DNA of 64,000 nt from Aphrophora alni (Eukaryota; Arthropoda; Insecta; Hemiptera; Aphrophoridae): NCBI GenBank assembly GCA_963513935.1, contig OY740767.1, positions 82,448,060 to 82,512,059 of the forward strand. The letters run 5' to 3'. Made by a program: the position numbers and the translations under genes. Below, one piece after another: positions 3,819 through 59,266 of this stretch; within the stretch, counting starts at the first letter, position 1; each line of letters begins with the position of its first letter. The notes beneath the pieces were generated by a model, which saw only the letters and a program-made list of their open reading frames with translations, did not search any database and was not told where the DNA came from.

Positions 3819-3820
3819 AG

Positions 3821-7917: not shown

Positions 7918-7930
7918 AAAGGGGGGATTT
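7918..7930 (+). other. Polypurine tract
   Basis: The same AAAGGGGGGATTT run as at 1234-1246, placed directly before the right LTR. Confidence 0.65.

Positions 7931-10501: not shown

Positions 10502-10502
<1 letters not shown>
7931..10502 (+). mobile_element. Long terminal repeat, right copy
   Basis: Matches 1247-3818 at an offset of 6684 bases. The match ends at 10502/10503, where the sequence passes directly into a (CA)n run instead of a primer site, so this is the right-hand edge of the array. The left flank of the array is outside the window, so no target-site duplication can be tested. Confidence 0.75.

Positions 10503-10577
<75 letters not shown>
10503..10577. repeat. (CA)n microsatellite at the LTR edge
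   Basis: About 37 CA units start at the exact base where the two LTR copies stop matching. Either the element inserted into a CA run or the run expanded from its terminal CAACA. Confidence 0.95.
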
Positions 10578-10579
<2 letters not shown>

Positions 10580-12569
10580 TAAACACACATATTTATAAAC
10601 TTTTGTAATGATATTAATTTGTGGCCGTCTGTTGATGTTGACAATATATGTCTGTTTTTTTTATAAATATGTTAGTAACAATTGAGATAAAGTGGGATCC
10701 AAGTAAATCCTCGAGAATGCTTATTCATTGAGCAGTGAAACATGTGTCATAGAAAGCAAGAAGAGTATGGATTGTTGAATTACAATTAATCTACAACTTA
10801 ACTAGTATTTCTGACAATATACATTTCATAATACAATCACAATGTATTGGAGTACTATCAATAAACTGAACGACTCTAAAAAAATTACATACTCAGTTCG
10901 CTTGAGTCTTTACATATTCACAGTCCACAATGAAGATCGACAGGTTTTGTTCTTTTTAAGCGATGCACTTCTTCGTCGTTTTTAAAAGAATTATTTCTAG
11001 ATTTTTATGTTGAAAAATCTGCATTTATGCTTCTCCGCATATCTATTGATCTCTTTTGATTCACAGAAGAGAAACATGTCGGATATATAAAGCAAAAAGA
11101 CTACATGGATTTTTTAAATATTTTATAATAAATTTCAACTAAGCTTGACTAAGCTTGTCTATTAATGCTCACTATACAGAGTGTCCCACAACTCTCTGGA
11201 CACAGGTATATTGCATTATGCCTTGGGTTAGGCAAACACATTTACCATTTGAACATGGGTCTCCCGTGCCTATTTGTCCATCTGTCTATCTGTTTATGTG
11301 TTTTACTTTAATGTCCATATTTTAAAAAGTACTGAGCCGAATTCAATTAAACTTGAGTCAACTGTTTATGGTGATAGGATCTATCATCCCCAAAGTTATG
11401 GTGTAATTATGTCTCACAAATGTCTCGTAATTATGAGAATTGAAAAAATTATGATGAAGTTTGAATCCTGGACAATGTTATGGTGGAGTCACTCCAAGCG
11501 TGGATAGCAGCAAAATAAATATGCTTTGATAGCAGAGTATAGCAATACTTTATTGCTCCATAACCTTTTTCCTATGCATCTACAAAACCAGAAAGTCAAA
11601 AGTTTGTGGTACTAGTTAATTTTGAGAAGCAAGAAATTTGAATATTCTGCAAAGCAGGCAGTTCATTTATAAATCTCGTCCAGTGTTTATACAGTTTCCT
11701 AGGTATAGGATCGTCTCATCTGAAGTCTATAATTGTTATATAAAACATTTTACCCAAAATATGATTGGAGCTAGAAAACTGCATAGGTCATAAATTTGAG
11801 CAGTAATAGACATAACAGCATAGTTGAACCCTGCTCCTGAGATCAGAGCAGCAGGCAGACATTTAACTGAATAACAGTACCAGTACCTAGGCTCCAGAAT
11901 ATTGAATGATGTAAGTTAACTATATTTTTATGCAAATACCACCTTACGAAAGCGAAATATTTATATTTCACATTTATAACTTCATTTTTTTCGATCGAGC
12001 TGTGAAATATGTCGATCATATAAAGTCAAAAGATTATGGAGTGTTTAAATTTGTACCTAAATTTGTGTCTAAACTATACCTATTTTTATGCAAATAATAT
12101 CTCATGAAAACAATATATTTGTGTTTTCTCATATATCACTTTACATTTTTTCAATGCTGGTTGTAACAATAGGATACTTTGGTGGTTGGCCTACGATTGA
12201 CTATATACTTTGGAAATCGCATGACCCCTAACCCACATAGGTCATCATTTCCCTTATACCCCTGACCATTCACCATCGTGGGAGCCAGCTATCGATGAAG
12301 TTAAATACTAATTAGTCATAATTAGAACTATATTAACATTCACTAATCACTGTACTTATGTCATAACTATTTGGCATGGATTGAATAGGTCTATAGCCTA
12401 TTGCTACTGACCAGTTATAATATTATTCATGGTATGTTTGGGTTATTTGGCCTTTCTGAAATACTCGCTTGGGTCATTTCCCAACATATATTAACCGGCC
12501 ATTGCGAATTTGGGATAATTTATAAATTAGAAAATTAAGAAAAAAACTAGTGACACTGATCAAATAGTT

Positions 12570-13981: not shown

Positions 13982-14100
13982 TCAAAATGGTAGTAACTGG
14001 TGAGCAACACTTTCTGCAAGTTTGGAATTATCCATGTGGTTTAAAATAGAAAGTGCAAATTCCATAGATTTACCTGAATACCTATTTGTCACAAGCTTAC
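13982..14100 (-). CDS. DJ-1 paralogue B, coding exon 5
   Basis: Starts after a TGTTTCAG acceptor and completes the GGT codon; ends in TGA at 13984-13982. GKLVTNRYSGKSMEFALSIL is the counterpart of the family's LTSRGPGT-FEFAL block, with the glycine-rich part altered. Confidence 0.9.
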
Positions 14101-14426
14101 CTGAAACAAACAATTCCACATATTTAGTCAATGAGTAAACTTACGAGTAAATTGAAATTACAACTTGGTATCTTGAAGGTATTTAAAACATTAATATAAG
14201 AAAGTCAACATATGAAAGCTTCAATTTGACAGTTTTCATCTATGGTGCATATGCACCTATAATGGTTTTGTTTCATCTAAAAGAGTTCCCATATATTTTT
14301 ATTAAAAAATGTTAGCTTGTCTGAATGTGTATGTGAGTGACTGTATGTATGTGGTATTTATATATTGATGTACGTGTGGTTCATGCATGCATCTCCACCC
14401 TATGTGTGTGTATTTGTGTCTGTATA

Positions 14427-14470
<44 letters not shown>

Positions 14471-17400
14471 TGAAGTATGTCTGTACCGGTATCTATATGT
14501 TTGTGTCTATAAGACTGTCTTAATGTATCTTTTAGCAACTGTATGTTTATACAAGTGGTTTATATTGATAACTATATGTGAATGAAAATGTCTGAATGAT
14601 TGTTTTTATGTATATAAGAGCGACTCTTTGTCTTTGTAAGGGGCTGTACATAACTTTCAAAGGCATTTTTAAGAAAACCTTTGGAGAGACTTGTCTACAA
14701 TTTGGTTATTTGTATAACTTAATAAAGTGTAGTGAATTAAAATTTGATTTTCTTCATGAGGATGAAACATATAAATCACTTGATCACATCTGATTGAATT
14801 ATATAGCTACTAGAGTTCCAAATATGTTGTTTGATCTATTCTTAAACTAGACTGTATGCTGACTAACTGACAGTTTGACAGATTTAAAATAACACAAAGA
14901 CCAAATTGTCACTTGTAACAAAAAAGTACTTCCTGAGAACCCGTCACCATGTTTTGTTTTAAGTAAAAACATGTTAATGTTTTAAGTAAAAAAAGCCTCA
15001 AAATGAGTTTTTGAAGTTTTATTCAGAACTTTATTTTCATTGATTTACTTTGCCCTAATCTGCAACAGAGGGGATTGTGCTCCCTAGCTGGTGAATTTAT
15101 TCTGAAAATACATCCTCACAAACTTCACTGGTTCCATGTTCCTTACAGGCGAAAACCTTAGCTCCTTGTAAAAAACAGTAATATTTTAACACACCTTTTT
15201 GAACAACTAACTAAGTAGTATCAGCCAGTATGCTCAATTGTAATTTACATAAACCTTAACTATCACATAGATTATTATAAATAAAGCTATTATAAATAAA
15301 GCAACTATAACAAATGTAACATAAAAATTAATTTAACATGATCACATTTTGATCAAAACAAAGATTCAATTTAAGAAATTTTTAGTTATGGTAAGGGTAA
15401 ACAAAGAATATACTCAGAATTTACACCTACAGGACCAACAAAAAAATTCATTGTAGTTGAAATTTTTAAACAGTAGGCTACATTGTGTATTATGTTCATG
15501 GAGAAATTTGCAAGTTGTTTGTCAAATTTGAAACAAAATATAACTGAATTGAAGTATCCAAGATTGAATAATTGTGAAGATTCTGTTCCAAGGAGTAAAA
15601 CTTTAAAAGAAGAGGGAAACATTTAAAGTACTGATTTCAAATATTGACTACAGAGATGTCAACTAGAGGAATGTGAGGAATCAACAAACATGAATTTAAA
15701 GTGGAGAATAAATCAATTTGTATAAGTATCTATAAATAATCCTAATTTTAACAAAATGTTTAAAAATAAATATTTAATTATTGAACATTATTTTTTTAGA
15801 GAATAAAAATATAAGAATTTATATTTTTATATTAAAATTCAAAATTTATTATAAGTTATTTATAAGAAATTGATCAAAATATTTGTACCTACTTTAAAAG
15901 TTATTAGATTGACCATATCTGTAATGTTACTTAAAATTAAAATTATTATATTTCAACTAGAACATAACAATAATTTTATCAAGTACCCTACAAATGTCTG
16001 AAATTTTTAGTTTGGTTTTAATATTTTTTCAGTTGACAAGTAATTACATTATAAAACTTTATCTTTACTCAAAACGTTTTGAAACCGGAACTCCTTAAAA
16101 ATGTGTAAACTGAAGAAGTTAGTGAGATGAAATAAGAATAATAGAATATTCTACTCAGTATAATATCTAAAGTTCATACTTGGAAAAATATTATTCAACC
16201 AAAACTCATTACAATTTTCACTCAGCCTTCAATGTATTGTAGATGCAGTTTTTTATCTAACAAAATTAATAAATTGATTCAATTTAATATAATCATAATG
16301 AATATATAAATAAACAATAAGTAATGAAAAGTGACAAAAATTTAAGGGTATGGCTAAATTGTCATAATCACATAACAGAACATGTTATAACAAACTGTGC
16401 AGAATAAAAAAACTTCCATAATTAGGTGAAGGTCTTCTGGTATCGGACACCTTAACTTTTTTTAGTCTGTGAAGCTGAAAGATAGCTATATCCAATTACT
16501 TCATACACAAAATGATACCCTGCTATCTTATACACAACTTATTAAAGATGATTTGACAGGTAAAAACTAATAATATACATATTTCTAAAAAGTCAAAGTT
16601 AACATAAATTAGAGTCCTTCAAAAGTGGAGGGTGGTGGTATCAGACACACATAAAACTATAGAGAATTGATCTTTTGAGATAATTCCTCATTGGGGGATG
16701 TTTAATTTTCTGCTTATCTGCGTTACTTTTATGAGCTTTGTCTTTTTCCTTCTTTATTTTCTGTTTTATCTCCCTTATCTCAATTCTTTGTTCTGCTTTA
16801 GCTTTCTTCTCTTCGATAATGGCTTTTTTCTCCATAAACATATTTTTGTAGGGCGTAGATGTTATTATTTCACTCTTCTCTTAATTTGTATTTTACACTT
16901 GAAGCGCTTGGTAGTGGTGAAATTTGTTGCCAATATCTGTTGAGTACTCCGTGACACCAAAGTAGCTACTTCTTGGCGTTGGACACAAGTTTGGTTTGGA
17001 GACTCAAGCAAGTTGAAAGCGTTAGAGGGTTCCGCTTTTGAAGGCTGGTTGAGCATTGGGCTTTGATCAAATGGATTGTCTGAATTATGTTCATACTTAT
17101 CATGCAAGTTTGGAACATCAGCTGACCAATGGAACTCCTCTTGATGAGGATTGGGCGACGTCTGAACTTGAGTTTTTGGTCTCTCTTCTGGTTCCAGAGT
17201 TATTATAAAGATGTTGGTTCATAAACTCTTAATAAAAATATTTTCCAGTCATAAATGTTTTTTTATTGAAGCGATGTTTGATTTTTAGTTTTTCATCAAG
17301 TTTGTAAGCTAGTTTTAAAAATTCTGGTTTTCTTAGTGGTTGACTTAGTTGACTATCCAAAGCCTTTACATGATTGTCAAGTATTTCCTCTTGGCCACGA

Positions 17401-20400
17401 TCAAACGTTGTACTAAATGTGCCTTTGTTATACGAGCAGCAAGGCTTAGCTGTTACCTCTTTCCCTTCTAACAGGTTTCTGACACGATCTCCTTAATTAC
17501 TCTTAAGAACATCATATCTAGCACTGGCTGCATGTACTGCCATTGTTTTGCAAATAAGTGCCATGGCCAACTTCATATATTCTGCATCCCAATTGCCACC
17601 CCATGGTTTCCTGGAAAACCCAGAAACTATTAAATAAACTTGAAGTTTATTTACCAGTGTTATGTAAGATACCACCCGTTTCCACTTTGTCCCATACTAG
17701 CAGAACGACTTGCAACATATTAGTAGCTATCTACGGGCTTGTAACAACACGAATGAAACTATACGCCTAAATTATAAAATATTTTGTAAAAATTGCTTCC
17801 ACACAAAACTATCACTGTGCACCAGATAAATCGTGAAAATACAAAAAACTCAAAGCACAAATAGAACAAATCTGTTCATAGGACACAGTTCATAGGACAA
17901 ATCCAATATGGTGTGGGCTTGGCTAGTTCATTATGACCAACTCACTATATGCTTGACAGGTGCTATCTCAAGTAGAAAAATAATGAAAACTGCTTTTGTC
18001 CCATACTACCCGCTGTCTGATACCAAACGACTTTCTCCTATTTCTTTAATTAACCATATTTATACAATACCGGTCTTTAATTTTGAAAACTGAAGACAAG
18101 TGTTTCCACACATATGTACAAAGTCTATTTAAGCAAGATATATTACAAATGATCAAACTAATGTAATAATTCCCGCCCATAAATTTTATCAATAACTATA
18201 AAATTTCTACTAACCATCCACTACAATATCAGACTCTTTATACTTATAATGCTCTGATAATTGTTTCTTATATTGTGGTGCAGAAGTGATGTATTTCATA
18301 TATCCAATTTCATGAGCATCTAATACAATTACACCTGGAAAAGTAAATAGAAGTTATATAGGTAAAAGAAAATGCAATTACTTATATCATATTCAAATGT
18401 CAAGTTGTTAAAAATTATTATTTTAAACTAGATTAGTTTATGATTTCCACTGAATACTTAAAATTAAGCAAATATAATAATATTTTTAAAAGTCATCAAA
18501 CACAAATTACACAATAAGATGTACAAAATTCTGTTTGAAATCATATCTGTAAAACAGAATCTTGCCTTTGGTCATTGAAATACTTATAAGTTTGCAGTTT
18601 TTATATTTATTTGTTTAATTAATGTACTTGTTTACTGATTATGGTATCCTCTTAAGGATGAACTATAATTTCTAGTAAAATTTAAATAGCATTGGCAAAA
18701 CATGGAGACTATATTTTAATACTCTGTACAAGCAAATTACTGTACTCTCTAAGTAATGTGAATTATTATTATGAATTGTTAAATTCAAGACAATTTGAAT
18801 TATACTTTGAAATTATAAAAATGAATGGCTTACCAGACCCAGAAGTAGCAATATAACGCCTTTTGTATTCATGTTCTTTTAACAAAATTCCAACTGATTC
18901 TGACTAAAATATAAAATAAAATGTTAACATAGAATATAATAACGTTTCCTTTCATGCAAGATTAAATTTTTGTTTTCTTTTGTGAATATTTTGTATATTT
19001 TGCCAATAATCCTTACGTAGCATGTGCAATATTGTCCTTACATAAATATAATAAGTAATGTAACACCCTTAATCCATGCATACTTCTTTTGTAATAAAAA
19101 TTGTCATCTAAATGAGAAAAATCTACAATATTTTCTGAACAACAGTCACTTAAATTTAAATGGACAAATCAGATGTGCAGTGTATTATGATCACCTTGAT
19201 AGACTTCATTGTTTAAAGCCTTGAAAGTAAAAAAAAGTTTATGAATATATTTTTTGAGCTTTCTAAGGCTTTTGATTGTGTGGATTTTGTAACCTTGTTT
19301 GTTAATTTAGAAAGAAAGTAAATGACCTACCACTTTCATGGATAAATCCTTTATGAGTTGTAATAGGACTCAAAGGGTTCAGGCAGCAGAGAGGCCATCA
19401 AATCGGTTCAAGTAAAGTGCAGGAATTCCACAAAGATCTGTCCTTGGACCTGTTTTATTTATTTTTTATATTCTGGATTTATCATCATGTAAAAACACGT
19501 GGAGTAACCTTGTTTGATGATTCTTCAAGAATTCAAACAGTTTTACATTTCCAACTTTATACATTTTTAAGACCATTATATATAATTAGATGAAATGTAG
19601 TAAACCAGTTTATAGCAAAGATTTTAATGATTATAACACCAGAGGAAGAAAACATTTACGGTGTCAGCCTCTTAGACTAATGTTTTCAGAAAGTTTGACT
19701 CACAGGCTGGTGTACCATTTATTAACAAACTTCCAGACCACTTAAGACTAAAAGAAATGTTTTTAAAATTGTTTAACCGCCTAAGAAACGTTTATTGTGT
19801 GAGTCCTATTACTCTGTGAGTGAATTAAGTAGCCATTTATGTTATCCAAAAACTTTCAATTCGTCAGTGCAGTCTATTTTTAGTGTGACAATTATCATTT
19901 TAAAATTCAATTAGCATTCTGTTAATTTGTAATTACTAATTTATTGTTAAATGTATTGAATTAATGTAATTGTATTGAAATGAAAAGTAACTATGGTCAT
20001 ACAAATGTAGTTTTCTCATAGACTGCAAAAAATAAAATTTTCTGTATGTACATTTGTTATTAAAAAACTAATAACGTAATGCATTGTATTTTTGTTATGA
20101 AATAAGTCAGCAACTTTTTTGTATCAATCTTCAAACATAATTAAAGTCAAAACAAGTCATCAAATTTTTATTTACCCCTAGTCAGCGCCAAATGAAGCAC
20201 AATATCTTTACACCTAGATACTAAATGTTTATTTCAATCCATTAACCCATTAGTTTTTAGAGAACTCACAAATGTACTTAATACAAGTACAATCAAATTA
20301 GGGATAAAAATAATATATTAAGATTGTTAAAAAATCTCAAAGTGTAATCATGCATTTCTCACAAATTTGTCAAAATTAATTTCGAGATCTATCAAAATGT

Positions 20401-21457
20401 TAATTATAGATCAAAATCTGGGGACAGATTTCTAACATAGCCACTACACTTTCCTTATGTACAAGTTTGTTGTTTAGAAAATAAATATAGTAAAAGTAAA
20501 GTAATTTATTGTTAAGTGTATTTATGATACTATTCTTAGATCTAAGATGATGTCACCAACATAGAAGCAATTGACTTCTATACCGAAAATTTATCTTAAA
20601 AAAATGTTGTTAGACATACTTGTTAAGCAAATAAAGTTCTTTATTCGTTTGACTCTTATCGGTTCATCACAAAAAATAAATCTATTAACAAATTTGCTTA
20701 CAAAGATGAAAGTGTGGTTGGATAAATGGTTGTTTGTGCCCATTCCATAAATTTACAATCCCTAAAATTAACGTATATCATCATGAAAACAGACAGTAAG
20801 TACCTAATGTTTAAATGGGTTTAATAAACTACTTCAATATGTAAACAGTCAACAAAAATGTTCATAATATCTGTCAAAATGACGTTTTAAAATTTCTCCT
20901 TTGATTTTCAAATTCCTAGCTGAAAAAAAAATACAGTTGTGCTAGAATAGACTATAAAGTTTATGTGTACTCTTTATGGAGTATTTACCTCTTTTAATAG
21001 CTTAGATGCTTTCTCACCATCTACAAAGACTACAGCATCAAATGGAGTTTGTTGTGATGCAACTTCAAGACTCAAGTCTGGTTTAATAACAACACCATTA
21101 GCACAAGAAACAGATTCATTTCCATCTAGACCTGCTACAACCACTTGAAGCTAAAATGAAAGAATAGACTACATAAATTGTTTATAAATGTTTAATTGGA
21201 CAGTTTAAATAACTATTTGATAGATGTAAAAACAAAAACAAGAAGAACACTACAATAAAAAAGAATATTCATAATTACTTTTTAGTTCAACTTATGAATT
21301 TAGAACAAAATGATCCATAAAAGAAGGTAATTTTATTTGACATTTATTTTTTGTGTACTGGTGTAATTTTAGTCTACAATTTTGCTATACAGTGAACTCA
21401 GGATGGTATATTCAATGTCTAAAACAGACTCGTTAAATTATTTAAGAATTGTTCGTT

Positions 21458-21509
<52 letters not shown>

Positions 21510-23608
21510 TAAAGCATAGACCTGAATCAAAGTAGAAAACTTTACCATTACATTCACTCACTGAAATTAGTTTTCCAGGTTCACGTGTATTTACCAAGTT
21601 TGAATTGAATGGAATTTTTAATGCACAGCCCACATAATTTACATCACCCTTTTGGATTGTGTCACCAACAAATTAATTTCAGTTGACAATCTCCAGTTTC
21701 AACCTTTACACCCAGGGCTCTGTATGGTTGGACGATTATGTCAATAGCTACTCATGGGACTTTTTATGAACTCAACAAAACCAGAAATAGTAGTTGACAT
21801 TGTGAAGCTTGGAATACAATTCAAGGAGAAGTGACCAGATGGAAGTGGAGGAAATAGGAGCTGAGAATGACCAGATGGAATCTACTCTTCAACCTCTCCA
21901 TCAGCACATAGGCACTCAGGGAGTGCCGAAATATCCTGTTGTAGAGGAAATCTCCAATCCAAAGAAGCATGAGGGTAGTTCAAGCAAACCTTCATTATAG
22001 TAAGGCGGCAACCACTGTCTTACAGAGGCTGATTGATCAACAACAAGTTGATGTCACCCTAATAAAAGAACCATTGGTCACTGGTGGCAGAATTACAGGG
22101 CCATTCATCAATGGAGATAAGTTAGTACATGATAAAAATCTACTAATAAACCTAGAACCTTATAGTAGTTAGGAATAACTTTGAGATATTTGTGTTATCT
22201 TCTTTATATTCCAGAGATATATCACTGGTAAGCACTGACCTATATGTGGGCTCAAGAAATCGGAAGCTGATTTTCACTTACGGTTACTTCCCACACGATC
22301 TAGCTAACAATCCACCACCCGTCAACTTCAAGAAGGTGGTGGAGCATTGTATGCATGAAAACATTGAACTCCTGGTGGGAGTAGATGCCAATAGACATCA
22401 CACAGTGTGGAGAAGCAGTGATACATACAATAGAAGTGAGTCTTTACTTCCTTATATTGTAGCATCTAATCTTTATATTTTAATATAGGAAATACATCTA
22501 CCTTTGTTACTAAGGCTAGAAGGGAGGTTTTAGATCTATCACTTGGAACCAATGGTATATACAATGCTGTAGGTAAATGGTATGTATCAGATGGACTGCC
22601 TATGTCAGATCACAGACACATTATTATAGAACTCCAAGTACATAATAGATCAGTTAACATTTTACAAAATCTCAGGAACACCAAATGGGGGGTGTATGAG
22701 GAAAACCTCAAAATTAACTTTCAAACGTTTGGGAGATTTATTGGTAATTCACAAGAATTTAAGATTACAAGAAGCAGGTTGACTAATATAGTTGTGGACT
22801 CCTTTCATGAAAATTGTCCTCTTACATAGAGAGAGTGAATATGGGTCAAGCCATATTTTGAGTGGTGGACTCAATCACTTTCTGATCAAAGGAGGCAGGT
22901 CAGGTGGTTGTTTAATATAAAACTTACCAAACTTTATGCTAGATGGGAGGTCTTATAAACAATCCCTCACTGAGTATAACAAAAACATTATAAAACCAAG
23001 ACTTGAATTTAATAGGAGCTTCTGTGGGGAATTATATTGCAGTGCCCAAGGAGAATGACTTCATAAGATCCTTGCCTCCAATCCCTTAAATCTAATGGGC
23101 AGTCTTATAGGCTCAAGTGGTAAGTTTACAGAAACCAGGACGGAAACGGTTGAAGTTGTACTGAGGACACACTTTCCTTACTTGGTTATCAAGAGAATGG
23201 ATGGGGCGTGAGGGTCAGATATTCCCTTCATAGTTCCAATTAGGGAAACCTGGCGTATCAAAAATCTAATAGTAAATATTGACCAAATTTTTGGTGGGCT
23301 ATTAATTTTTTTTATCCATTTCAAGTCACTGGGCCCAGATGGGATTTTTCCGGTTCTACTGCAGAAAGGGGAAATATACATTAACTCCATCCTGTGCAGA
23401 CTGTTCCAGGTTAGTCTAGCCACCCGGTACGTACCTCAAATGTGGAAGGCAGCCAGAGGAGTGTTCATGCTTAAAACAGGATGCAGCTCTTATTAGACTT
23501 CTATTATTCTGAAGACACCAGAAAAACTGGTAAATAAACATATACATGGGGTCACGATTCCTTTGCATATAAGTCAACATGCATACCAGTCAGGTAAAGA
23601 ATATATAT

Positions 23609-23686
<78 letters not shown>

Positions 23687-25555
23687 AGGCTGCAATATTG
23701 CACTTGCAGGCACTAAAAAAAAATCTAGTCTGGTATGGGAATGCTAAGCGAACCTCAAGAATGTTTATTCTAGGAAAGCTGGGTAACATTGCAATGGGTG
23801 CTGAGGCATAAGGGAGTTGATGGTAATGATAGGCAGACAATCTGGCTAAACTCTGCATCAGAGTTTGTAGGACCTGAACCAGCTGCAGGATCCATGTGGC
23901 CGGCCAAGATAGACATAAACAGGTGGGTTAATGCAAAACACCAGCAATGATGGGGAAGCCTTAAGGGGCACTCCCATATTAAATCATTACTTAGTCCTGA
24001 AAGGGCGATAATGACCCAAGGTAGGGGACAACTCTGACAAATAAAGGACTTATTACGGGACACTGTGGTCTGAGAGTGCACTTGCACAGGGTTTTAGAGC
24101 TTATCATGGCGAAACTGTGTGAAGACTTTCTGGGAAAGGTAAGGAGACCGCAGACCACATAATTTTCAATTGTGAGGTCCTGACCAATAAAGAGGCGAAA
24201 GGTTTTTGGATTTCAAATTCCTGGGGAATTATAATTGGACGTGCTAGTTAGTGGATTATTCAAACTAGAAAGGGGAACAAATCTGCTAAGCTAGAATGAC
24301 AAGACTTTTGGTTACAAAATAGGCTATCAGTCTTGATATTAGGGCTGGTTAATAAAAAACCCTTTAAACTCCAAATTAAATCAATAATTAATCAATCAAT
24401 TATTCGTGCAAAATTGTGATGGTAAGTCAAAATTACCATAGTTAACTTATAGTATAGTATAGTTTTGAGATATAGGGTTTCTGTCATTTCTCTTTCAAGC
24501 CTCTACCAAGTGAGTTCTACACACTTTCTTCATTCCACTACAATAAGGATGGTATATAAATAAATTTAAACAAAGTCTATTTTAGGAAGTAATTCAATGA
24601 GTGTTTTCTCCATCTGTTATGGTGGGGGAAATTATTGTTATTATCAACTATTCATAACAACAATGAAGGGCATAAACATTAAGATAGTCACTTAAAATTT
24701 GGATCTCTAAATTCTTATTTTACGTAGAAATTTATACATATAAGAATAGTAGAAATTTGTTTTTAATCCAATCCAAAATGTAAAAATTACAGCAATTTAA
24801 AATAATTTTTACTTAATTGTTTTGCATACTACATACGACATACAAGATACTAAATTAGGCACAATTATTGTCAGATTCTAAAATTACAAGACATATTCTG
24901 CATCTTCAATTAACGTTGTTATAAATAATAATATAATTCCAATAATACAAATTCGATCTCTGGATTTTGCAAGAAAGTTTGATATTGCCAAGTTTTGAAA
25001 ACAATTGTAAGATTTGGAGGCTGCTTTAGCATACTTTTTACATAATTGCTGTAATATGCTATATTATTTATAGTAACATAGCAAATTCAGATTTGAAATA
25101 TAAGTTTACCATAAACATTAACTTTAAACCATTAAAACATTTTTCTTGTCATACCGATAACCAACTAATTGTCATAGCAAAATCTAAACATTGAAATATA
25201 TATAATAATTATTAAAAGCTATGTTTAACTACTTATTGCATTCAAAATACTAAATTTGATTACATTCAAAAATGTATTATTGAAACTATTTACAATTTTT
25301 AAATTACTTTTTAGATAAGTCTATTATAGAAATAATTGTAATTATCTTCTAAGTAATTATTTGTAAATTTACCCCAGCAAGTCTTAGTACACATATTGTT
25401 GTAACAGCTTCTAATTCATTTGTACCTTCTGCAAGCAAGAAAATTACACTTAGGTTTTTAGCATTACAGAAGTAAATAACAGCACACAAAATAAAAACAT
25501 CTTTCAAGCTTACTAATGACCACACTGTAATACTAGATTTAGTTGTACGAATCAT
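13982..25555 (-). CDS. DJ-1/PARK7-like paralogue B, catalytic cysteine missing (five coding exons)
   Basis: Coding exons on the minus strand are 25555-25373, 21150-20989, 18903-18834, 18334-18215 and 14100-13982, about 217 residues. All introns have GT-AG ends, and the phases fit without a stop. The fold is clear: VIFLLAEGTNELEAV (strand 1, glutamate equivalent to Glu18 kept), LQVVVAGLDG, VVIKPDLSLE, DAHEIGY. Family members are small stress-protective or deglycase/chaperone-type proteins that depend on Cys106. Here the nucleophile elbow reads IATSGSG instead of AAICAG, so the cysteine is glycine; the PGG loop is VDG, and the TSRGPGT block is TNRYSGK. The open frame argues for a retained but non-catalytic protein. 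The first exon's start is uncertain: an upstream exon could replace the 30-residue hydrophobic lead. Confidence 0.8.
14101..16640 (-). other. Lower part of intron 4 of DJ-1 paralogue B
   Basis: AT-rich non-coding DNA with a (TA)n run at 14432-14467. Apart from the microsatellite I see no gene or transposon domain in it. Confidence 0.6.
14432..14467. repeat. (TA)n microsatellite
   Basis: About 18 TA units flanked by TG-rich sequence; the open frames over it are artefacts of the repeat. Confidence 0.95.
16641..17675 (-). pseudogene. Tigger/pogo-like transposase remnant lacking its DDE core
   Basis: On the minus strand, about 17675-17220 encodes, across frames, pieces typical of the DNA-binding half of Tigger/jerky-type transposases: the segment LRKPEFLKLAYKLDEKLKIK, then HRFNKKTF, equivalent to the family's LAYQ..EKN.IKHPFNKE block. 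About 16940-16641 resembles the C-terminal tail, with a TPYKN-like start and a long run of E, K and I (EKKAIIEEKKAKAEQRIE). The catalytic DDE domain between them is absent, and several stops are present. It lies in intron 4 of DJ-1 copy B. The assignment rests on short motif matches. Confidence 0.5.
18215..18334 (-). CDS. DJ-1 paralogue B, coding exon 4
   Basis: 120 nt with a split codon at each end, acceptor TTTCCAG and donor GTTAGT. DAHEIGYMKYITSAPQYKK aligns with the human LAHEIGFGSKVTTHPLAKD segment; the family histidine (His126 in human) is alanine here. Same size as exon 4 of copy A. Confidence 0.9.
18834..18903 (-). CDS. DJ-1 paralogue B, coding exon 3 (mutated nucleophile elbow)
   Basis: 70 nt, ending in phase 1, acceptor ATTTTAG and donor GTAAGC. 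It reads SESVGILLKEHEYKRR and then IATSGS, where the family has AAICAG. The cysteine position is glycine. Length and phase equal exon 3 of copy A. Confidence 0.9.
19240..19850 (+). pseudogene. Jockey/CR1-type LINE reverse transcriptase remnant
   Basis: Plus-strand pieces read LSKAFDCVD (the RT palm motif A with its catalytic D), then NRTQRVQ, then GIPQRSVLGPVLFIFY (motif B region, usually GVPQGSVLGP), and further down the tail signature YNTRGRK and KLPDHLR. Stops and frame changes break it. The YADD core is missing between 19500 and 19620. It lies antisense in intron 2 of DJ-1 copy B. Confidence 0.75.
19851..20988. other. Intron 2 of DJ-1 paralogue B, upper part
   Basis: AT-rich, no coding domain or structured repeat recognised. 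Confidence 0.5.
20989..21150 (-). CDS. DJ-1 paralogue B, coding exon 2
   Basis: 162 nt, 54 codons, phase 0 at both ends, acceptor TTTTAG and donor GTAAAT. It covers the segment that holds Cys46 and Cys53 in the human protein: the first is kept (VSCANG), the second is lysine (VVIKPD). It has exactly the same length as exon 2 of copy A. Confidence 0.9.
21461..21510. repeat. (AT)n(AC)n compound microsatellite
   Basis: An AT run passes directly into an AC run in intron 1 of DJ-1 copy B. Confidence 0.95.
21809..24340 (+). pseudogene. R1/LOA-like LINE with endonuclease, RT, RNase H and zinc-tail remnants
   Basis: A decayed LINE runs left to right. The endonuclease starts at 21969 (MRVVQANLHYSKAATTVLQR), continues with VGVDANRHHTVW and REVLDLSL near 22380-22540, and has the catalytic SDHRH at about 22605-22620. 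RT pieces appear near 23320-23600 (SLGPDGIFPVLLQKG, TPEKLVNK). RNase H pieces lie at 23780-23900 (WVLRHKGVDGN, SEFVGPEPAAG). The tail near 24140-24200 reads ETADHIIFNCE. The order and RNase H place it with the R1/LOA/I-type LINEs. Many frameshifts and stops, plus a GA microsatellite at 23612, show that it is dead. It lies antisense in intron 1 of DJ-1 copy B. Confidence 0.85.
23612..23684. repeat. (GA)n microsatellite inside the LINE
   Basis: About 36 AG units interrupt the LINE between its RT and RNase H parts. Confidence 0.95.
24341..25372. other. Intron 1 of DJ-1 paralogue B, upper part
   Basis: AT-rich, no gene, repeat or transposon domain recognised. Confidence 0.5.
25373..25555 (-). 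CDS. DJ-1 paralogue B, coding exon 1
   Basis: ATG at 25555 gives 61 residues ending RLAG before a GTAAAT donor, phase 0. The conserved part starts at LSVIFLLAEG. The preceding 32 residues include a hydrophobic run (VFILCAVIYFC) that could be a signal peptide or membrane anchor, or could be non-coding if an acceptor such as CCTAAG is used. Confidence 0.7.
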
Positions 25556-34169: not shown

Positions 34170-34400
34170 ATGGCTTTGATAGAGGGCTTGAATAAGTTTT
34201 ACTTTTTTCTTGGTTCTTTGAAGCCGGTAAAGAAGTTGCTTATTCCCGTTGTTAATGTTAATAATATTTTGAATTTGAACATTTCTTACGTTAGGCATAA
34301 CAGTTATACAATGGCCAATAAATCTGCTCTCATTTTAATTGCTGATGGAACTGAGGAAATGGAGTGCATTATCGCAGTTGACGTTCTTCGCAGAGCAAAG
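34170..34400 (+). CDS. DJ-1: DJ-1 A, coding exon 1 with two candidate starts
   Basis: ATG at 34170 (AAGATGG) and ATG at 34311 (ACAATGG) both have A at -3 and G at +4. The later one matches the usual DJ-1 start (MANKSALI). The frame also opens upstream at a GTG (34134), which is not used here. Donor GTTAGT after RRAK, phase 0. Confidence 0.88.
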
Positions 34401-41200: not shown

Positions 41201-44200
41201 TTTTATTTATAATTTATACAATTAAATGTAATTTATATACAAAATTATTTTTTATTGCCTGTTATTGTTAAATGTTGTACTATATATTTTGATTTCAGAA
41301 CAAACACACAACAAAAACTTTGAAATTAGGTGAACCGGTCAAAATGACCGGATGTTTCTGATAACGTATTTATTTTTATGTTTCGGTTAAAGTGTTAAAG
41401 CGAGACTTATAGTCTAAGTCCATTGATGTTGTCCTGGAGTGTATGTCTTGTATGAGTCTGCACAGATGGTGACTATATATAAATTATGTCATCATATTTA
41501 GGAACTGATGGCTTGATTCAATTTGTAGATGACACTACACTTACAAAGTGTTTCGGTTAAAGTGTTAAAGCAGATTCTACACAAAATTTGGAAATACAAT
41601 CTCGTATTGAAACAAATTTTGCATGTAAATTTTTTGCTGAAAAAAACTTGCACATAAATGCAGATAAGACCAAAATACTGAATTTTAACCTAAACCAAAA
41701 AAAATAACAGCATTGGTCCAGTTGTTACATTGGGCGAGAAAGTTATTGTAGAAGTGCAATCATCAAAGTTTCTTGGCCTGTTAATTGACAATCATTAAAC
41801 TGGTTGGTACATAATGACCTCATATTCAGAAAATTATCATCAAATATATATTTGTTGATGGCAGTGAAAACATTTGGCATTGTTAGTACCCTGCATATGG
41901 CCTTCTACGGGAATATTTTTCTATACCTAAATAATGAAAATCCTTTGTGGGATAATTCAACAATTAAAAACGTATCTCGAGTATTTACACTACAAAAAAA
42001 GAGTAGTAAGACTGATAACTGGCCTGGGTCAAATAGAATCCTGCAAATTGGCTTTTAAAGGCCTTTCTGTACTTTGGTCTTCATTTGTTATAAAATTGTT
42101 TGAGAATTAAGATATTATGACAAAAACAATTGCTATTTTAAACCTTATGATAAATTTATTTAAGATTAATGGGCCTTATAAAAAATGTAGGACTACCCCT
42201 ATACCAAAGTGTGTATTTGTTTTAATACATAAATAATACATAAACATTGTTCATACAAATTGAATATTTTAAATGTTTATTTATGATCAATGTTTTGTAA
42301 ATGTTTTAAAACATGATCAATAAACACTATTGAAATTAAATACTGTGTAAATTTGTAGGTGTTCAATCATATTTTACAATTCAATAAATTATGAGTTAGT
42401 TTAGATTGAAGAATAATGGACTTATTAAAATGTGCACTCTTAAAAGAGAGATTTTTGTATCTAATTAATTTTCTTGTTAATTATTTTATATTTATTGGTG
42501 TTGATAAGATTACAATATTAATTGGCGAGTAGAACTATCATTATAATGTTGTGTATGTTTGTCAAGATTTAATTGTTAACTATTATTTCTTGTCTAAGTA
42601 TGAACTAAATCAAAGTTCTGTATCACTAAAATAATCCTAAATTCTTTAGTTATAGATATAATATAGAGCTACCATTCGTAACAACCCATTGACAATTTAG
42701 TTGTGGAATTTAAATAAAAATACTGTTATTACAGTTTTCCATTAGGGTAATGATCTCATATTGATAAATTTAATAATGTATGTTTAAAGTTCTCTTAAAA
42801 ATTTGAACTCAGTGTACATATGAAGTTCTGTTTGTTTTGACTAACCCAACAGAGTCTCACCAATATCATACAGACAGAAATTGAACTGATGGTCTCTATG
42901 TAATAAGAAACTATAATTAATTTTAAAAAATATCGAAAGTTTTGGTTTTCATATCAATTGTCTATCTATTTCTCTCCACTACCAGCCAAAATTGGGTTTA
43001 CAGTGTGCACCAATATTCACTCGATTAGAGCCCAATGCTGTGTGGTTGCCCCCAAATTGGATAAGCTACAAATTATTGACTAATTGAAGGTTCAAGTTTT
43101 TCCATGGTATTTAATATATGTGATAGCAATGCAGTATAAATAACAACTTTCAGGTTTATAGTACTCATGAAGTTAATCTTGTAGTTAAGCCTGAAATGCC
43201 TGTGACTTGGTGTTAGCAGGATGTAACTTATTTCTTACTTCTTAGAGCTTGAGTCTAGCAGTCAGGTAATGCCGATATCACGATGCATACTGTACAATTG
43301 CTCAGCAATGACCATTAGAAATTGGCAACTCTGTATTGTCTGGACATTGTTGTAAAGGTTTCTCCTTGTCTTGCAGGGTCTTCTTTATTATATCACTGTT
43401 AGGGCAGTTTTTCTACTCACAATCTATAATCACATTTGACAGAGATTCTGTCCTTGAGCACCCTTGACTGGAAAGTGATGAAGAACAATTTTAACTTTTG
43501 GAAATTCAACTATTCTAGAATTAGGGTGTGCTGAATTTTACAGCCTATATGAAGAATTTGGTACTAACAAGTAGCACTAGCTAGCTCTAAACAGAAAGTT
43601 TCTAGTTGCTGTGGAATAAAAAGATTGGATTATGAGTCCATATATAATTGTCTATTTGTTTTGAAGATTTGATTTTCTGACTAAGAGTGTTAGTATTACA
43701 GTAATTGGATGTAGATAATCTCGTTAGTATCTAGTATCTCGAAATTGAAATAGTTAAAAAATAAGACTTTTTAAATTATGTAAGTCTATATTTAAGTATC
43801 AGTTTAATATTTAAGAACATTTTTGAGTTGTATAAATGCCATAAACAAAAGTCCTTTTTTGTTTTCTAGGTATCAGTTACACTGGCTGGTGTAAATGGAA
43901 CCCAACAAGTAACATGCAGCCGACAAGTAGTTGTTATGCCTGACTTAAGTCTTTCTGATGCAATAAAGAAAGGACCTTATGATGCTGTGGTCTTGCCTGG
44001 AGGCTTAGGAGGAGCAAAGACTTTTGCTGAAGTATAAAACATTTCAAAAATATAATTTTTTAAAAAATATAAATTTTAGGGAGTATATATATCAAGATTT
44101 CAATTATTTGGCCCTTCCACAATACTGGGTAACCAAATATAGTGGATTATCAAATGACTTATTTATATAAATCCTTTGTTAACTAAACCTTTGAACTAAG

Positions 44201-50300: not shown

Positions 50301-51344
50301 TTAATTATAATATTGTCTCAAATATTTATTAAATTTATTTATTTTGTTTTTAGCTCCAACTGCATTGAAAGCCCATGGAATTAGCTTTGGTAAAAAGCTG
50401 ACATCTTACCCGTCAGTAAAAGATGATTTAGTTAAAGATTACAATTACAGTGAAGACATTGTTGTGATTGATGGTAAATATTTATTGATTTAACTTATGT
50501 GTAATATCCACTGCTAGAGCAGTGTATTTGATAATAATGTTTTACACAAAAGTCCCTTGACTAATGTTGAACTTAAATCTAAATTTTGTTTTAAACAGGG
50601 TTGTCTAATATAAGTACTATAAGAGATTCAATTTACTGTCGTTCTCACTTGTCTCACTATTTAGTTCACTTTCATACTCTCACACTTTTGCATATCATTA
50701 AAATAAAACTTGAACACAATTTTTCACAAATAATATGAGATAGTTTGATTATTCTAGCTCAAGTATCACTGAAGCGTGTTTAATTTTGTTGTTAAAACAC
50801 GCTTGATTTAATAAACATATAATTTATGAAAAATTGTATTCAATTTATATTTTAATTTTAAAACATCTCAAGTAAGCTACAAGTCAAGTAAGCTGAATAT
50901 GTATTCATTCTGCATATAACGTCAGTATTTATATATGTGCATTTACTTACAAATTGTCTTTATATAGAAATTCATAGCAAAATCTAGAATATTTTGTTTT
51001 CTCATTCCAAAGTTTGTAAATTGTGTTTCAAATTTTCAAAAAAGGAAAGATAACTTTTCATTCAAATCTATCTATACAAATAAATCTGTAGGGGGGGGGG
51101 GGGGAGGGCCACATTTGTCCTCTCATATTTTAAAAACTATTAAACTAATTATAATGAGAAATTCAAAAACAAAAGGAAGGCTTTAATGTTGAGTTTTTTC
51201 GATATCTCAATAGTGCCACACTATATTACTATCAGGTGCTGCATTCTATCGGACAATTTAGAAACTTCTTGGAACCTTGACAAAATAGATAATCTCTCAA
51301 TGCATTGAACCATCCTGACATATGACTTTTATAATAATAATAAT

Positions 51345-57300: not shown

Positions 57301-59266
57301 ATTTTGAAAAATATAAAAACACAAATACATCCATTAAAAATCATAATTCATTCATAATACACATAACTAAATTGATAAATTGTTTATGATGTCTATACCA
57401 CGACATCTAATATATAAAAAAAAAATTCGTAGAAGTGAATCCCATTCCTCTGTGATTCCAGGAATGCCTCCAAACAGTAGATCCTCCAATGCTCACGCAG
57501 GCTCCAATTTCTGATACACACCGACATGAAAATCCCTTATAAAGATTTGAATAAATATTCATTATATATTAAAACAGTTCTGCATTGTTCATTTTGAAAA
57601 TCATAGAAAACTTGGAAGTAACACTTCTCTAATTATTCTGAACAAAACATTTTTTATGTTGACTCGCACAATACGTCTTAATTATTTCAAAAGTTCTCTG
57701 TCCACTCTTATTAATGTCCGAACAGAAAACTAAATATCTTTATATGTTTCCACACTCAGTTCTACACTCACACACATGTTCAAATTCCACCTTTCATTGT
57801 TCTACTAAAACCTCAATCACATCACATACGTCTTACCAGGATGAAGGTTCCTGGCCTGAAGTGTTATTAATGTCCGAAAACAAAAATACTTATTTTTTAT
57901 ATGTTTTTTACACTCTGTTCTTAACTCAAACACATGTTTAAATTTTACTTTTCATTGTTCTACTAAAACTTCAATCATATCACATACGTCCTACTAGGAT
58001 GAACATTCCTGGCCAACTCTACTGTTTCTTTTTAATGTCCGAAAACAAAATTACACATCTTTATATGTTTCCACTCAGTTCTTCACTCAAACACACGTTT
58101 AAATTTTACTTTTCTTTGTTCTACTAAAATTTTAATCACATCACATACGTCTTACCAGATTGAACATTCCTTGCCAACTGAACTGTTTCTTTCCCTCTCA
58201 AACCTAAGCGTCCTTTTACAGATCTACTAACACAGCATATTTCATTTAATTAAGTTCATGTACGCACTTATATAAAAATATGCCAAAATATTGATTATAA
58301 ATTCATTCTAAACCTATTTATATTACAATATTATCTTCTTGGATGTTTTTAGTCAAAAATTTACAGCTTTTAAATTGATTTACAGCATTTCCCAAAAGCT
58401 CTAACAACCAATCAAAATCTTTGACCTATTTGTGCTTGGTCCAATCACATGTCTTCATTAAAACTGTACAATATTCAAATATTTCATATATTACATGATG
58501 CCAGGTGTCTCCCAACACATTATAATATATTATTTAATTTGTATTAGTATTTGTTACTGTAAAGAAAATCAGTAACATTAATCATTCACAGTTTATCTCT
58601 TTGTTTATTTATAACTATATATACAGTTAAAAAATAATAATTATCGGCTGTGAGCACATTTGTGGCGATTGTTTTATAATTTTCATTAAAGTATCTAATT
58701 TAAGGAAAATTACAATTTTTAAACAATATTTTACTATAAATTTAAAACGTAATGCTAAAAAAAACTGTTTGATAATAAATATTTAAAAGAAAAGGAACAT
58801 TAATTTGTTTTTGAAGTGTGTTAAACATAATTTGAAGGGGGAGGAGGGGGGGTATGCTTAAATATGAGTTGATTACATTTTGATTTTTAGCTATATTTGG
58901 TTGATTTTAGTTCAAGAAAAGATGTTTTTAAAGAAGGATTAAATAATATCTTATATTAATAACCTTTCTTATATTTTGTTTATCGTAGAAGAAATAAAAT
59001 TCAACATTTTTAAACACATCACAACATACTATTTTGATATGGTATACACATTTTTTATATATAATATGTAGTTGTTTTTTCACTGTTAATGATATATTAT
59101 TTCGTTTAATTTTTTACTTTGTAAATTTGTTTTTTGTAATTTTCATTCAGGTACACTAATTACAAGTCGAGGGCCAGGCACAGCATTTGATTTTGCATTG
59201 AAACTAGTAGAAGTACTTACTGACAAAGATAATATGGGAAGTGTCAAGAAAGGAATGCTGTTGTAG
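34170..59266 (+). CDS. DJ-1: DJ-1/PARK7 homologue A (five coding exons)
   Basis: Exons 34170-34400, 43870-44031, 47262-47331, 50354-50473 and 59151-59266 join in phase with GT-AG introns; the product is 232 residues from 34170 or 185 from the ATG at 34311 (human DJ-1: 189). The core is typical: [16 protein letters not shown] (catalytic Glu18 equivalent), [20 protein letters not shown], the nucleophile elbow VAAICA (Cys106 equivalent), PTALKAHGI and [15 protein letters not shown]. Family members are cytosolic and mitochondrial oxidative-stress proteins reported to act as chaperone, glyoxalase or deglycase. The optional N-terminal 47 residues are basic and hydrophobic, like a mitochondrial presequence. 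The gene spans 25 kb because its introns are full of transposons. All key residues are kept except human His126, which is tyrosine. Confidence 0.93.
34401..34769 (+). other. Start of intron 1 of DJ-1 A
   Basis: Non-coding, AT-rich; nothing recognised before the fold-back repeat. Confidence 0.5.
35177..35242. repeat. (TA)n microsatellite
   Basis: TA run with a short CACACA interruption, inside the fold-back loop. Confidence 0.95.
35303..35370. repeat. Two (TAA)n microsatellites
   Basis: TAA runs at about 35303-35321 and 35350-35369, separated by about 28 bases. Confidence 0.9.
36245..36740. repeat. Diverged direct duplication of about 200 bases
   Basis: Blocks at about 36265-36450 and 36563-36740 share CTCTGCTTGA, CTTTAAAATGAT, AACCTATGCTTA and the GCATCCCC/CCATCCCC-AATT/TATT-AGA/GGA order, about 300 bases apart. 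Antisense open frames over the second block continue toward the integrase-like piece at 36757, so both may derive from an LTR element. Confidence 0.5.
36757..36945 (-). pseudogene. Ty3/gypsy-type integrase C-terminal scrap
   Basis: The minus strand reads [20 protein letters not shown], then WQKG, which matches the small domain near the end of gypsy-type integrases (F-x-VGD-x-V-x-ARDYR...W-x-x-G). Only about 60 residues remain, in intron 1 of DJ-1 A. No LTR or RT was recognised beside it. Confidence 0.55.
36960..38000. other. Intron 1 of DJ-1 A, no feature recognised
   Basis: AT-rich DNA with short A-runs; no coding domain seen. Confidence 0.5.
38010..38620 (-). mobile_element. Head-plus-tail LINE remnant (RTE-like), internally deleted
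   Basis: This GC-richer island reads on the minus strand. Near 38350-38330 there is [12 protein letters not shown], like the first strand of an apurinic-type endonuclease, and near 38160-38040 there is [10 protein letters not shown], followed in another frame by [11 protein letters not shown], like the very end of an RTE-type RT. Nearly the whole endonuclease and RT between them are missing. The leading 38620-38480 segment has the conserved non-coding look of a LINE 5' end. Confidence 0.5.
38819..41394 (+). mobile_element. piggyBac element 2 with both termini and TTAA duplications (2576 bp)
   Basis: TTAA at 38815-38818 is followed by CACTTTAACCGAAACA; the exact reverse complement TGTTTCGGTTAAAGTG ends at 41394 and is followed by TTAA (41395-41398). 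This gives 16-bp perfect terminal repeats with the TTAA duplication that defines piggyBac. Subterminal CCGGTCATTTTGA blocks also occur inverted near each end. It carries a transposase pseudogene. Confidence 0.92.
39182..41160 (+). pseudogene. piggyBac transposase 2, one frameshift and one stop
   Basis: The first part (39182-39781) opens at a TTG; the first in-frame ATG is at 39302. It has the acidic N terminus ([17 protein letters not shown]). The frame shifts near 39755 and a TGA stands at 39853-39855. The second part (39892-41160) is open for 422 residues: [24 protein letters not shown] (catalytic D), [11 protein letters not shown] (second D), [20 protein letters not shown] (third D) and a cysteine-rich C terminus ([20 protein letters not shown]) like piggyBac's DNA-binding tail. 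Few lesions and perfect ends point to recent inactivation. Confidence 0.88.
41480..42110 (+). pseudogene. Jockey/CR1-type LINE RT C-terminal remnant
   Basis: Plus-strand pieces read [10 protein letters not shown] (the YADD-type catalytic motif), then a TIR-like insertion, then [23 protein letters not shown], and further LQKKSSK/LQKRVVRLI with [12 protein letters not shown], the thumb and tail pattern of Jockey/CR1-type RTs. Stops and frame changes throughout. It starts about 85 bases after piggyBac 2. Confidence 0.75.
41549..41571 (+). repeat. Stray copy of the piggyBac 2 terminal repeat
   Basis: GTGTTTCGGTTAAAGTGTTA and the following AAGC repeat the piggyBac 2 right end and its flank (41378-41401), but here inside the LINE RT directly after the VDDTTL motif, with no element attached. 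Confidence 0.8.
42111..43869. other. End of intron 1 of DJ-1 A
   Basis: AT-rich, no coding domain. A short hairpin (ATGATCAATGTTTT paired with AAAACATGATCAAT) lies near 42283-42325. Confidence 0.45.
43870..44031 (+). CDS. DJ-1: DJ-1 A, coding exon 2
   Basis: 162 nt, phase 0 at both ends, acceptor TTTTCTAG, donor GTATAA. Encodes [10 protein letters not shown] through [13 protein letters not shown], the family's second strand and glycine loop. Cys46 equivalent kept (VTCSRQ); Cys53 is methionine. Confidence 0.95.
44325..44400 (+). repeat. tRNA-derived SINE head
   Basis: TAGTGGTTAGCA resembles an RNA polymerase III A box, and GGGTTCAATTCC at about 44367 is a good B box at the right spacing. The folding arms are poor, so it is a SINE head rather than a tRNA gene. 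It introduces the repeat block that follows. Confidence 0.6.
44514..44610. repeat. Dispersed repeat, copy 1
   Basis: CGCAATAAATAAAATACCGT and the following bases through ATCATGCAAAAAA match 52205-52285 with about eight differences. Confidence 0.7.
44559..45008 (+). CDS. Hypothetical 149-residue ORF inside a repeat
   Basis: A true ATG and an open frame of 149 residues, basic, with no domain I recognise. It starts inside the dispersed repeat of 44514-44610 and lies in intron 2 of DJ-1 A. No splice or translation signal supports it. It may be chance coding in a non-autonomous repeat. Confidence 0.2.
   Translation: MRNHAKKIPQNVINNIPKIGEVRLFFMRKIVNLNSALFRKTRRHFSRYDYNSIYLSFKSTKTLFYRSHVSLSNRRLQIFLHLTDPEITNLTTRNSFGIRCTLRNDEILFHVRKMTCSLQYVVGEISFYKLVPLDIGKYLLRRFCFDVQT
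45009..47261. other. Intron 2 of DJ-1 A, later part
   Basis: AT-rich; no gene or transposon domain seen. Confidence 0.5.
47262..47331 (+). CDS. DJ-1: DJ-1 A, coding exon 3 (nucleophile cysteine)
   Basis: 70 nt, ends in phase 1. [20 protein letters not shown] is followed by ICA, with the catalytic cysteine. Donor GTATAT is the first unit of a TA microsatellite. Confidence 0.95.
47332..47384. repeat. (TA)n microsatellite beginning at the splice donor
   Basis: After the exon's last G, GTATATATA... runs for about 26 TA units, so the 5' splice site is part of the repeat. Confidence 0.95.
47890..49675 (-). pseudogene. piggyBac transposase 3, decayed, with one terminal repeat
   Basis: The right end CCCTTTTGAGATCATCTAAC (read inward from 49675) is followed outward by TTAA (49676-49679), a normal piggyBac edge. 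Inward on the minus strand: an acidic N terminus with [11 protein letters not shown] near 49060, [15 protein letters not shown] and [13 protein letters not shown] (48640-48480), DESLIGIR near 48345, [15 protein letters not shown] pieces near 48250 and [13 protein letters not shown] near 48020. Many stops and frame changes. The left end with its TTAA was not found. It lies in intron 3 of DJ-1 A. Confidence 0.75.
50354..50473 (+). CDS. DJ-1: DJ-1 A, coding exon 4
   Basis: 120 nt with split codons at both ends, acceptor TTTTTAG, donor [26 protein letters not shown] follows the cysteine elbow; tyrosine replaces human His126. Confidence 0.95.
50474..52194. other. Intron 4 of DJ-1 A, first part
   Basis: Non-coding, with a G-run at 51091-51105 and a TA run at 51349-51396. 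A short hairpin (AAGCGTGTTTAA/AAAACACGCTT) lies near 50774-50805. No domain recognised. Confidence 0.5.
51349..51396. repeat. (TA)n microsatellite
   Basis: About 24 TA units after a TAA-rich lead. Confidence 0.95.
52198..52300. repeat. Dispersed repeat, copy 2
   Basis: CACAATAAATAAAATACTGT and following bases match 44514-44600 in the same orientation. Confidence 0.7.
52884..54507 (-). mobile_element. mariner-like transposon with long inverted ends
   Basis: About 52884-53030 and 54370-54507 are inverted copies of each other: both have TTTAAATACAAACAC/ACT, then ATATTTTTATTACATTT, TATTTTATGACACTTTT and, at the inner end, TGTCATGTGTAAAAACT. The left copy has extra bases near 52917. The ends are far longer than the usual 20-30 bases of mariner. 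They enclose a transposase pseudogene on the minus strand. Exact outer ends and TA duplications were not resolved. Confidence 0.65.
53159..54199 (-). pseudogene. mariner-like transposase, decayed
   Basis: On the minus strand: [13 protein letters not shown] and [18 protein letters not shown] (helix-turn-helix start, 54199-54050), then [11 protein letters not shown] near 53930, [13 protein letters not shown] sequence, WLKENW near 53690, then [20 protein letters not shown] (53617-53550), [10 protein letters not shown], a [24 protein letters not shown] block near 53400-53340 and an end at about 53159. This order matches insect mariner-type transposases whose last acidic residue follows the SPDLTPLDFFLWG block. 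Frame changes and stops throughout. Confidence 0.75.
54508..57712. other. Intron 4 of DJ-1 A, middle part
   Basis: AT-rich. The sequence near 54610-54675, ending GATCACCCTGTATAA, looks like a transposon end. A frame near 54700 with [11 protein letters not shown] hints at a tiny RT scrap but is too short to call. Nothing else recognised. Confidence 0.4.
57713..58200. repeat. Three-unit tandem repeat (about 156-165 bp each)
   Basis: Units start at 57713, 57869 and 58034, each opening AATGTCCGAA and containing TTGTTCTACTAAAA, CATATCACATACGTC-like and GGATGAA/GATTGAAC blocks in the same order. They are diverged by roughly 15-20%. No open frame runs through all units. Confidence 0.85.
58201..59150. 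other. End of intron 4 of DJ-1 A
   Basis: AT-rich, no feature recognised. Confidence 0.5.
59151..59266 (+). CDS. DJ-1: DJ-1 A, coding exon 5
   Basis: Follows a TTTTCATTCAG acceptor; [20 protein letters not shown] is the conserved last block. Stop TAG at 59264-59266. An ATTAAA at 59443-59448 could serve as polyadenylation signal. Confidence 0.95.

Follow-up and report, generated by a model that had tools for sequence, protein, structure and literature searches.

What becomes of a DJ-1 gene that has lost its catalytic cysteine? The question is raised by a 64,000-nucleotide (nt) stretch of the Aphrophora alni genome (assembly GCA_963513935.1, contig OY740767.1), referred to below as the window, which covers positions 82,448,060–82,512,059 of a 156.6 Mb contig in a 1.699 Gb assembly and has a guanine-cytosine (GC) content of 31%. 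The window contains a pair of DJ-1 genes arranged head to head, with copy B on the minus strand (25555–13982) and copy A, the canonical DJ-1/PARK7 gene, on the plus strand (34170–59266). Their start codons lie ∼8.6 kb apart, and the interval between them contains matches to DDE_Tnp_4 (harbinger-type) and hAT transposases. Judged from its sequence, copy B is, with a probability of about two in three, a functional, fast-evolving insect DJ-1 paralogue that has turned into a pseudoenzyme. Its gene is composed of five exons:

25373..25555, minus strand: exon 1 of copy B, 183 nt, with Met1, the leader, the first strand and the helix of the Glu18 equivalent; donor GTAAAT
20989..21150, minus strand: exon 2 of copy B, 162 nt, carrying the change of R48 to Asn79
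18834..18903, minus strand: exon 3 of copy B, 70 nt
18215..18334, minus strand: exon 4 of copy B, 120 nt, with Ala157 in the column of human His126 and insect Tyr
13982..14100, minus strand: exon 5 of copy B, 119 nt, stop codon included

The exons join in frame across four GT-AG introns into a coding sequence whose length is divisible by three and which encodes 217 amino acids (aa) followed by a single terminal stop. All eight splice dinucleotides (8/8) are intact. An earlier note on this DNA had proposed these exons, with junctions 25373/21150, 20989/18903, 18834/18334 and 18215/14100, and the joined frame and GT-AG borders show that it was correct in every case. Copy A likewise has five exons, which encode 232 aa:

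34170..34400, plus strand: exon 1 of copy A, with a leader followed by the internal start MANKSAL
43870..44031, plus strand: exon 2 of copy A, with the PGG loop
47262..47331, plus strand: exon 3 of copy A, with AAICA, in which the Cys106 equivalent is present
50354..50473, plus strand: exon 4 of copy A, 120 nt
59151..59266, plus strand: exon 5 of copy A, with SRGPGT, stop codon included

The positions and phases (0, 0, 1, 1) of all four introns are common to both copies, and exons 2, 3 and 4 are of equal length in A and B (162, 70 and 120 nt). Because the introns were kept, copy B originated by duplication at the DNA level.

The protein encoded by copy B matches the Pfam family DJ-1_PfpI (PF01965) with 103.4 bits (E 1.5e-29; the gathering cut-off is 26.6) in one stretch, and at E ≤ 0.001 this is the sole Pfam family found for either copy. 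Chains annotated in the PDB as DJ-1 or Parkinson disease protein 7 align with residues 37–211 of B at E ∼1e-33 with a single two-residue gap. These scores, together with the intron positions shared with A, place the match to DJ-1 beyond chance, and the two copies are identical at 69 of 183 aligned residues. With animal DJ-1/PARK7 (insect dj-1beta, copy A), B therefore has in common the PF01965 fold family, the nearly gap-free PDB alignment, the equivalent of Glu18 and the intron positions of A, but it differs in lacking Cys106, the PGG and SRGPGT loops, the charged residues E15, D24, R28 and R48, and the internal start methionine.

The extent of these losses was assessed against a canonical set of 80 rows, composed of copy A and 79 of the best 120 of its 6192 protein matches (those of 180–250 aa; the remaining 41 listed matches fell outside this range and were excluded, many being plant proteins with two domains). 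As the rows were chosen by similarity to A, the set is tilted toward cysteine-bearing proteins. Human residue numbers were placed on B through the alignment with the PDB DJ-1 chains. The Cys106 equivalent, a cysteine in 80/80 canonical rows, is Gly137 in B (18840–18838), and the surrounding features of the former active site are as follows:

18834..18849, minus strand: former nucleophile elbow, ATSGS-G by alignment, with the last G codon split by intron 3
21016..21024, minus strand: VDG in place of PGG, by alignment
14069..14086, minus strand: NRYSGK in place of SRGPGT, with the Arg156 equivalent retained as Arg185
25409..25411, minus strand: Glu49, the retained Glu18 equivalent, Glu in 80/80 canonical rows
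25391..25393, minus strand: Cys55, a new cysteine in the Asp24 column, which is Asp in 80/80 and Cys in 0/80 canonical rows

The PGG motif is what we take to be the oxyanion loop. The further conserved charges lost in B (E15 to N, D24 to C, R28 to L and R48 to N) occupy positions at which 79 or all 80 rows agree. Computational work on the human protein identified E15, E16, E18 and D24′ as a functional site (PMC1782040). Copy B has four cysteines, at residues 24, 30, 55 and 77; two of them, Cys55 included, belong to the core. Aligning B with the 80 rows yields 52 columns with conservation of 95% or more, all of them retained in A and 26 in B. The losses are concentrated in the pocket, elbow and charge columns, where 19 of 22 are changed versus 7 of the 30 other conserved columns (Fisher p 1.3e-5), although the group of 22 was drawn up after the alignment had been seen and one of the 19 losses, an Ala-to-Gly change beside the elbow, is also present in 2/80 canonical rows. 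The group comprises EEME (E15 to E18; four columns), D24, R28, S47, R48, the PGG loop (four), the elbow AICAAP (six) and SxGPxT (four). The alignments agree with the motifs read in the earlier note, namely the elbow ATSGSG, VDG for PGG, NRYSGK for SRGPGT and the kept Glu18 equivalent. Its reading of alanine at human His126 also holds for B, but a conserved histidine is the wrong yardstick, as 73 of the 80 rows have Tyr in this column, 6 have His and a single one Phe, with Tyr also in A; B departs from tyrosine, and the argument from His126 is therefore to be dropped.

Neutral decay is a bad fit to copy B. The genome provides a control for such decay in a processed copy of A on contig C9 (72216049–72216423, minus strand; loci L008 and L021), which is intronless and covers approximately nucleotides 234–688 of the coding sequence. 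It is 69% identical to A with gaps counted, with 53 substitutions in 371 ungapped positions and 17 gaps, 14 of them frame-breaking. Copies A and B differ at ∼49% of nucleotides (51, 33 and 63% at codon positions 1, 2 and 3 of 183 aligned codons), and their alignment contains one in-frame single-codon gap, no frameshifts and no stops, so B, with its introns kept and its frame unbroken, has the marks of neither a processed nor a decayed pseudogene. At the frameshift rate of the C9 copy, zero frameshifts in B allow ∼11 neutral substitutions, or ∼2% of sites (three expected events), a bound based on a single pseudogene and on gap counting. Since this number is smaller than that of the 26 changed conserved residues, most of the change in B took place under a maintained frame.

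The same picture was obtained from simulations and a codon model. In 1000 neutral simulations, which started from the family consensus, were halted at the identity of B to that consensus (83/184) and forbade stops, the score against a DJ-1 profile built without A or B was 108.3 ± 11.3 bits (maximum 141.4), and B itself scores 167.6 bits. On average 10.5 stop mutations were rejected per run, and none of the 1000 runs met fewer than two. Another set of 300 runs, which took copy A as the starting point, had a mean of 64.0 and a maximum of 97.1 bits, with B at 167.4; it was set aside because A is itself derived, and the consensus start replaces it. A check of the ratio of nonsynonymous to synonymous change (omega), which the earlier note had called for, was possible for the A–B pair only: the pairwise codon model gives an omega of ∼0.04, and setting omega to 1 worsens the fit by 28 log units, setting it to 0.2 by 3.5, but the estimate is an average over both branches with saturated synonymous divergence and is compatible with a very recent relaxation. 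A weaker sign is the GC content by codon position, which is 48, 34 and 19% in B and 51, 37 and 30% in A, with 31% in the introns of B. The open frame as opposed to the decay on C9, the profile score above those of 1000/1000 simulations, the omega value and the pocket-focused losses support the earlier proposal that selection has kept the fold and not the chemistry.

These tests also bear on the alternative that B is a recently dead gene, one that worked through most of its existence, came free of constraint lately and has an open frame by inertia. Such a history would agree with the loss of the pocket motifs and with the failure of the protein searches to find an orthologue of B, and a very recent loss would leave no trace in a single genome; in 300 simulated runs, 5% neutral substitutions per site left the frame free of stops in 30%. 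However, the C9 control combined with the absence of frameshifts limits a neutral phase to at most ∼2% divergence (from one pseudogene), the changed conserved residues are too many for such a phase, and the splice dinucleotides are all intact. We consider recent death unlikely.

Several points weigh against reading B as a functional pseudoenzyme. Besides the late grouping of columns, the shared Ala-to-Gly change, the single-pseudogene bound and the saturated codon model described above, all selection tests would also accommodate a loss of constraint so recent as to span only a couple of percent divergence. In the TIGR01383 model (DJ-1 family glyoxalase III equivalog), A scores 202.8 bits and B 106.2, below the cut-off of 131.25. 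No orthologue of B was found in protein searches of low power, and a retrocopy of B was sought in the genome and not found (A has the one on C9), so expression and splicing of B are predictions from the sequence. A binding role for B, the targeting of its leader and the tissue in which it would act are proposals. The searches with the whole B protein returned 416 candidates and three matches at E ≤ 0.001, all three with the elbow cysteine and none of them a B-like protein, and those with residues 34–137 returned 153 candidates, none at E ≤ 0.01. As both require exact shared five-residue words, the absence of B-like proteins from them is weak evidence. A B-like protein may also be present among the 6192 matches of A beyond the best 120. 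The protein database also seems to be without this species, since the best listed matches of A are only 68% identical: among named proteins in the best 120 of 6192 matches, the first by score is from a Clastoptera spittlebug (68% over 84%), followed by an assassin bug (63%) and then a Homalodisca sharpshooter (68% over 82%).

If copy B is a functional pseudoenzyme, it would fold as a DJ-1 domain, would be incapable of the glyoxalase, deglycase or redox-sensing chemistry that depends on Cys106, and would act, either monomeric or paired with itself, through binding to a partner or ligand. It would also be made in a single form. Copy A has two potential starts, the leader Met and the internal MANK (34170–34340), which suggests that short and long protein forms are possible for A alone. 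In B only the leader Met is available, as the canonical internal start Met is replaced and the next in-frame Met after Met1 is residue 151; the sole in-frame Met of exon 1 is at 25555, with an in-frame TGA upstream at 25582–25580 (located by eye). Because the internal start is lost, B would be produced solely as a leader-bearing, leader-targeted protein:

25457..25555, minus strand: N-terminal leader of copy B, residues 1–33, charge +3, with the hydrophobic stretch VFILCAVIYFC

This leader could be a signal peptide, a membrane anchor or a mitochondrial presequence, and there may be an additional exon upstream of exon 1. A tissue-restricted role for B is a guess by analogy with the testis-enriched DJ-1alpha of Drosophila.

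A special case of the pseudoenzyme, suggested in the earlier note along with a dominant role, is that B partners A in a heterodimer and tunes or poisons it. The fold signature kept in B and the adjacency of the two genes agree with this, as does the description of human DJ-1 as being active when dimeric (PMC11508141). The human dimer interface is formed by segments 15–29 and 47–56, with E15–R28 salt bridges between subunits and R28 near R48 (PMC11508141). Residues E15, D24, R28 and R48, all changed in B, fall within these two segments, so that a human-type inter-subunit E15–R28 bridge with A could not form in the canonical way. The lost charges are mild counter-evidence to a canonical A:B dimer, which is not favoured; the analysis lends no support to the heterodimer or to a dominant role, and the heterodimer seems distinctly unlikely to be the role of B. 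Still less probable is a relocated enzyme, in which Glu49, being retained, would make up a moved thiol site with the newly gained Cys55 of the neighboring subunit. The position of Cys55 in the core and the computed human site of E15, E16, E18 and D24′ (PMC1782040) would fit this arrangement, but the PGG and SRGPGT loops are gone, E15 is lost, and no canonical row has a cysteine in the Asp24 column. An assembly or annotation artefact, with B a contaminant or its exons drawn from different copies, is hardly credible: nothing supports it directly, although residues 1–33 of B do not align with A and could be mis-modelled, and against it stand five ordered exons within 12 kb of the 156.6 Mb contig, introns that match those of A, and a genome search, scoring best candidates only, that found no second copy of B.

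The age of the duplication was approached with a tree and with site patterns. The tree was built from both copies and 37 of the 79 other rows. In it the end branch of B measures 6.6 and the best place of B, beside a termite (94/29), is unreliable; A groups with Clastoptera and two further rows (99/91). Approximately unbiased (AU) tests did not reject placement of B with A (p 0.25), with four auchenorrhynchan rows (p 0.29) or with A and Clastoptera (p 0.26). Copy A differs at 61 sites from the consensus of those rows that carry no hemipteran name; at these, B has the consensus residue at 22, the state of A at 7 and another residue at 32. Of the 20 sites that characterize the four auchenorrhynchan rows, B agrees with the outside state at 9, with the auchenorrhynchan state at 4 and with neither at 7; for 15 hemipteran-typical sites the corresponding counts are 6, 4 and 5. 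The last two sets of counts (9 versus 4 and 6 versus 4) are too small for dating. A blastn comparison at E 1e-3 found no similarity between the arms of A and B. Since B keeps the consensus more often than the state of A and the arms have no blastn similarity, the evidence tends to favor a duplication that predates much of the divergence of A itself. A more far-reaching proposal, which we regard as quite unlikely, would make B a lineage-wide DJ-1 pseudoenzyme of great age in sap-feeding insects and an animal counterpart of AtDJ1C. Having lost its internal, cytosolic start, it would be a binding protein directed by its leader to secretion, a membrane or mitochondria, with the new Cys55 and the kept Glu49 facing a rebuilt pocket.

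The gene pair is surrounded by mobile elements. Window positions 1–10660 contain direct repeats ∼6684 bases apart, in which two 300-nt stretches are 100% identical and the same open reading frame (ORF) tail occurs at 3563–3895 and 10247–10660. Between the repeats are two ORFs, of 507 and 444 aa; the second has a match to a retroviral-type aspartyl protease, and no reverse transcriptase match came from either. This region looks like a very young long terminal repeat (LTR) element whose repeats are unusually long and whose coding extends little beyond gag-protease. Intron 1 of A holds an open piggyBac-type transposase of 434 aa (DDE_Tnp_1_7, E 3e-69) at 39856–41160 on the plus strand. Pieces of hAT elements (BED finger and C-terminal dimerisation region) are located at 30388–32378 (minus strand), a DDE_Tnp_4 (harbinger-type) piece at 26860–27237 (plus) and a DDE_3 (Tc1/mariner-type) piece at 60126–60545 (plus). 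Within B, intron 4 includes a decayed transposase-like (pogo/jerky-like) reading at 16700–17650 (minus), recognized by eye only, and intron 1 includes fragments at 22156–22829 (plus) that by eye resemble a long interspersed nuclear element (LINE) endonuclease, with no Pfam match for 22470–22829.

Both Drosophila DJ-1 proteins presumably retain the cysteine, unlike B. Drosophila has DJ-1alpha and DJ-1beta with divided expression, DJ-1alpha being testis-enriched (PMC11012351), and so resembles A. alni in having two DJ-1 genes in one insect. The nearest precedent for the loss itself is Arabidopsis AtDJ1C, a Cys-less DJ-1 homologue that has the conserved cysteine in neither domain, yet is functional and required for viability (PMC3160306). 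The likeness is one of function and description only, as AtDJ1C is a plant protein with two tandem DJ-1 domains that is needed for chloroplast development (PMC3160306), and B is a single-domain insect paralogue. Cys-less DJ-1 is thus already known in plants; a selected Cys-less animal paralogue beside a canonical gene was not encountered among the papers listed in searches of open-licence literature. If copy B is indeed such a paralogue, the DJ-1 fold would serve animals without that cysteine, just as AtDJ1C demonstrates in plants, and B would be a natural mutant for separating binding from chemistry.

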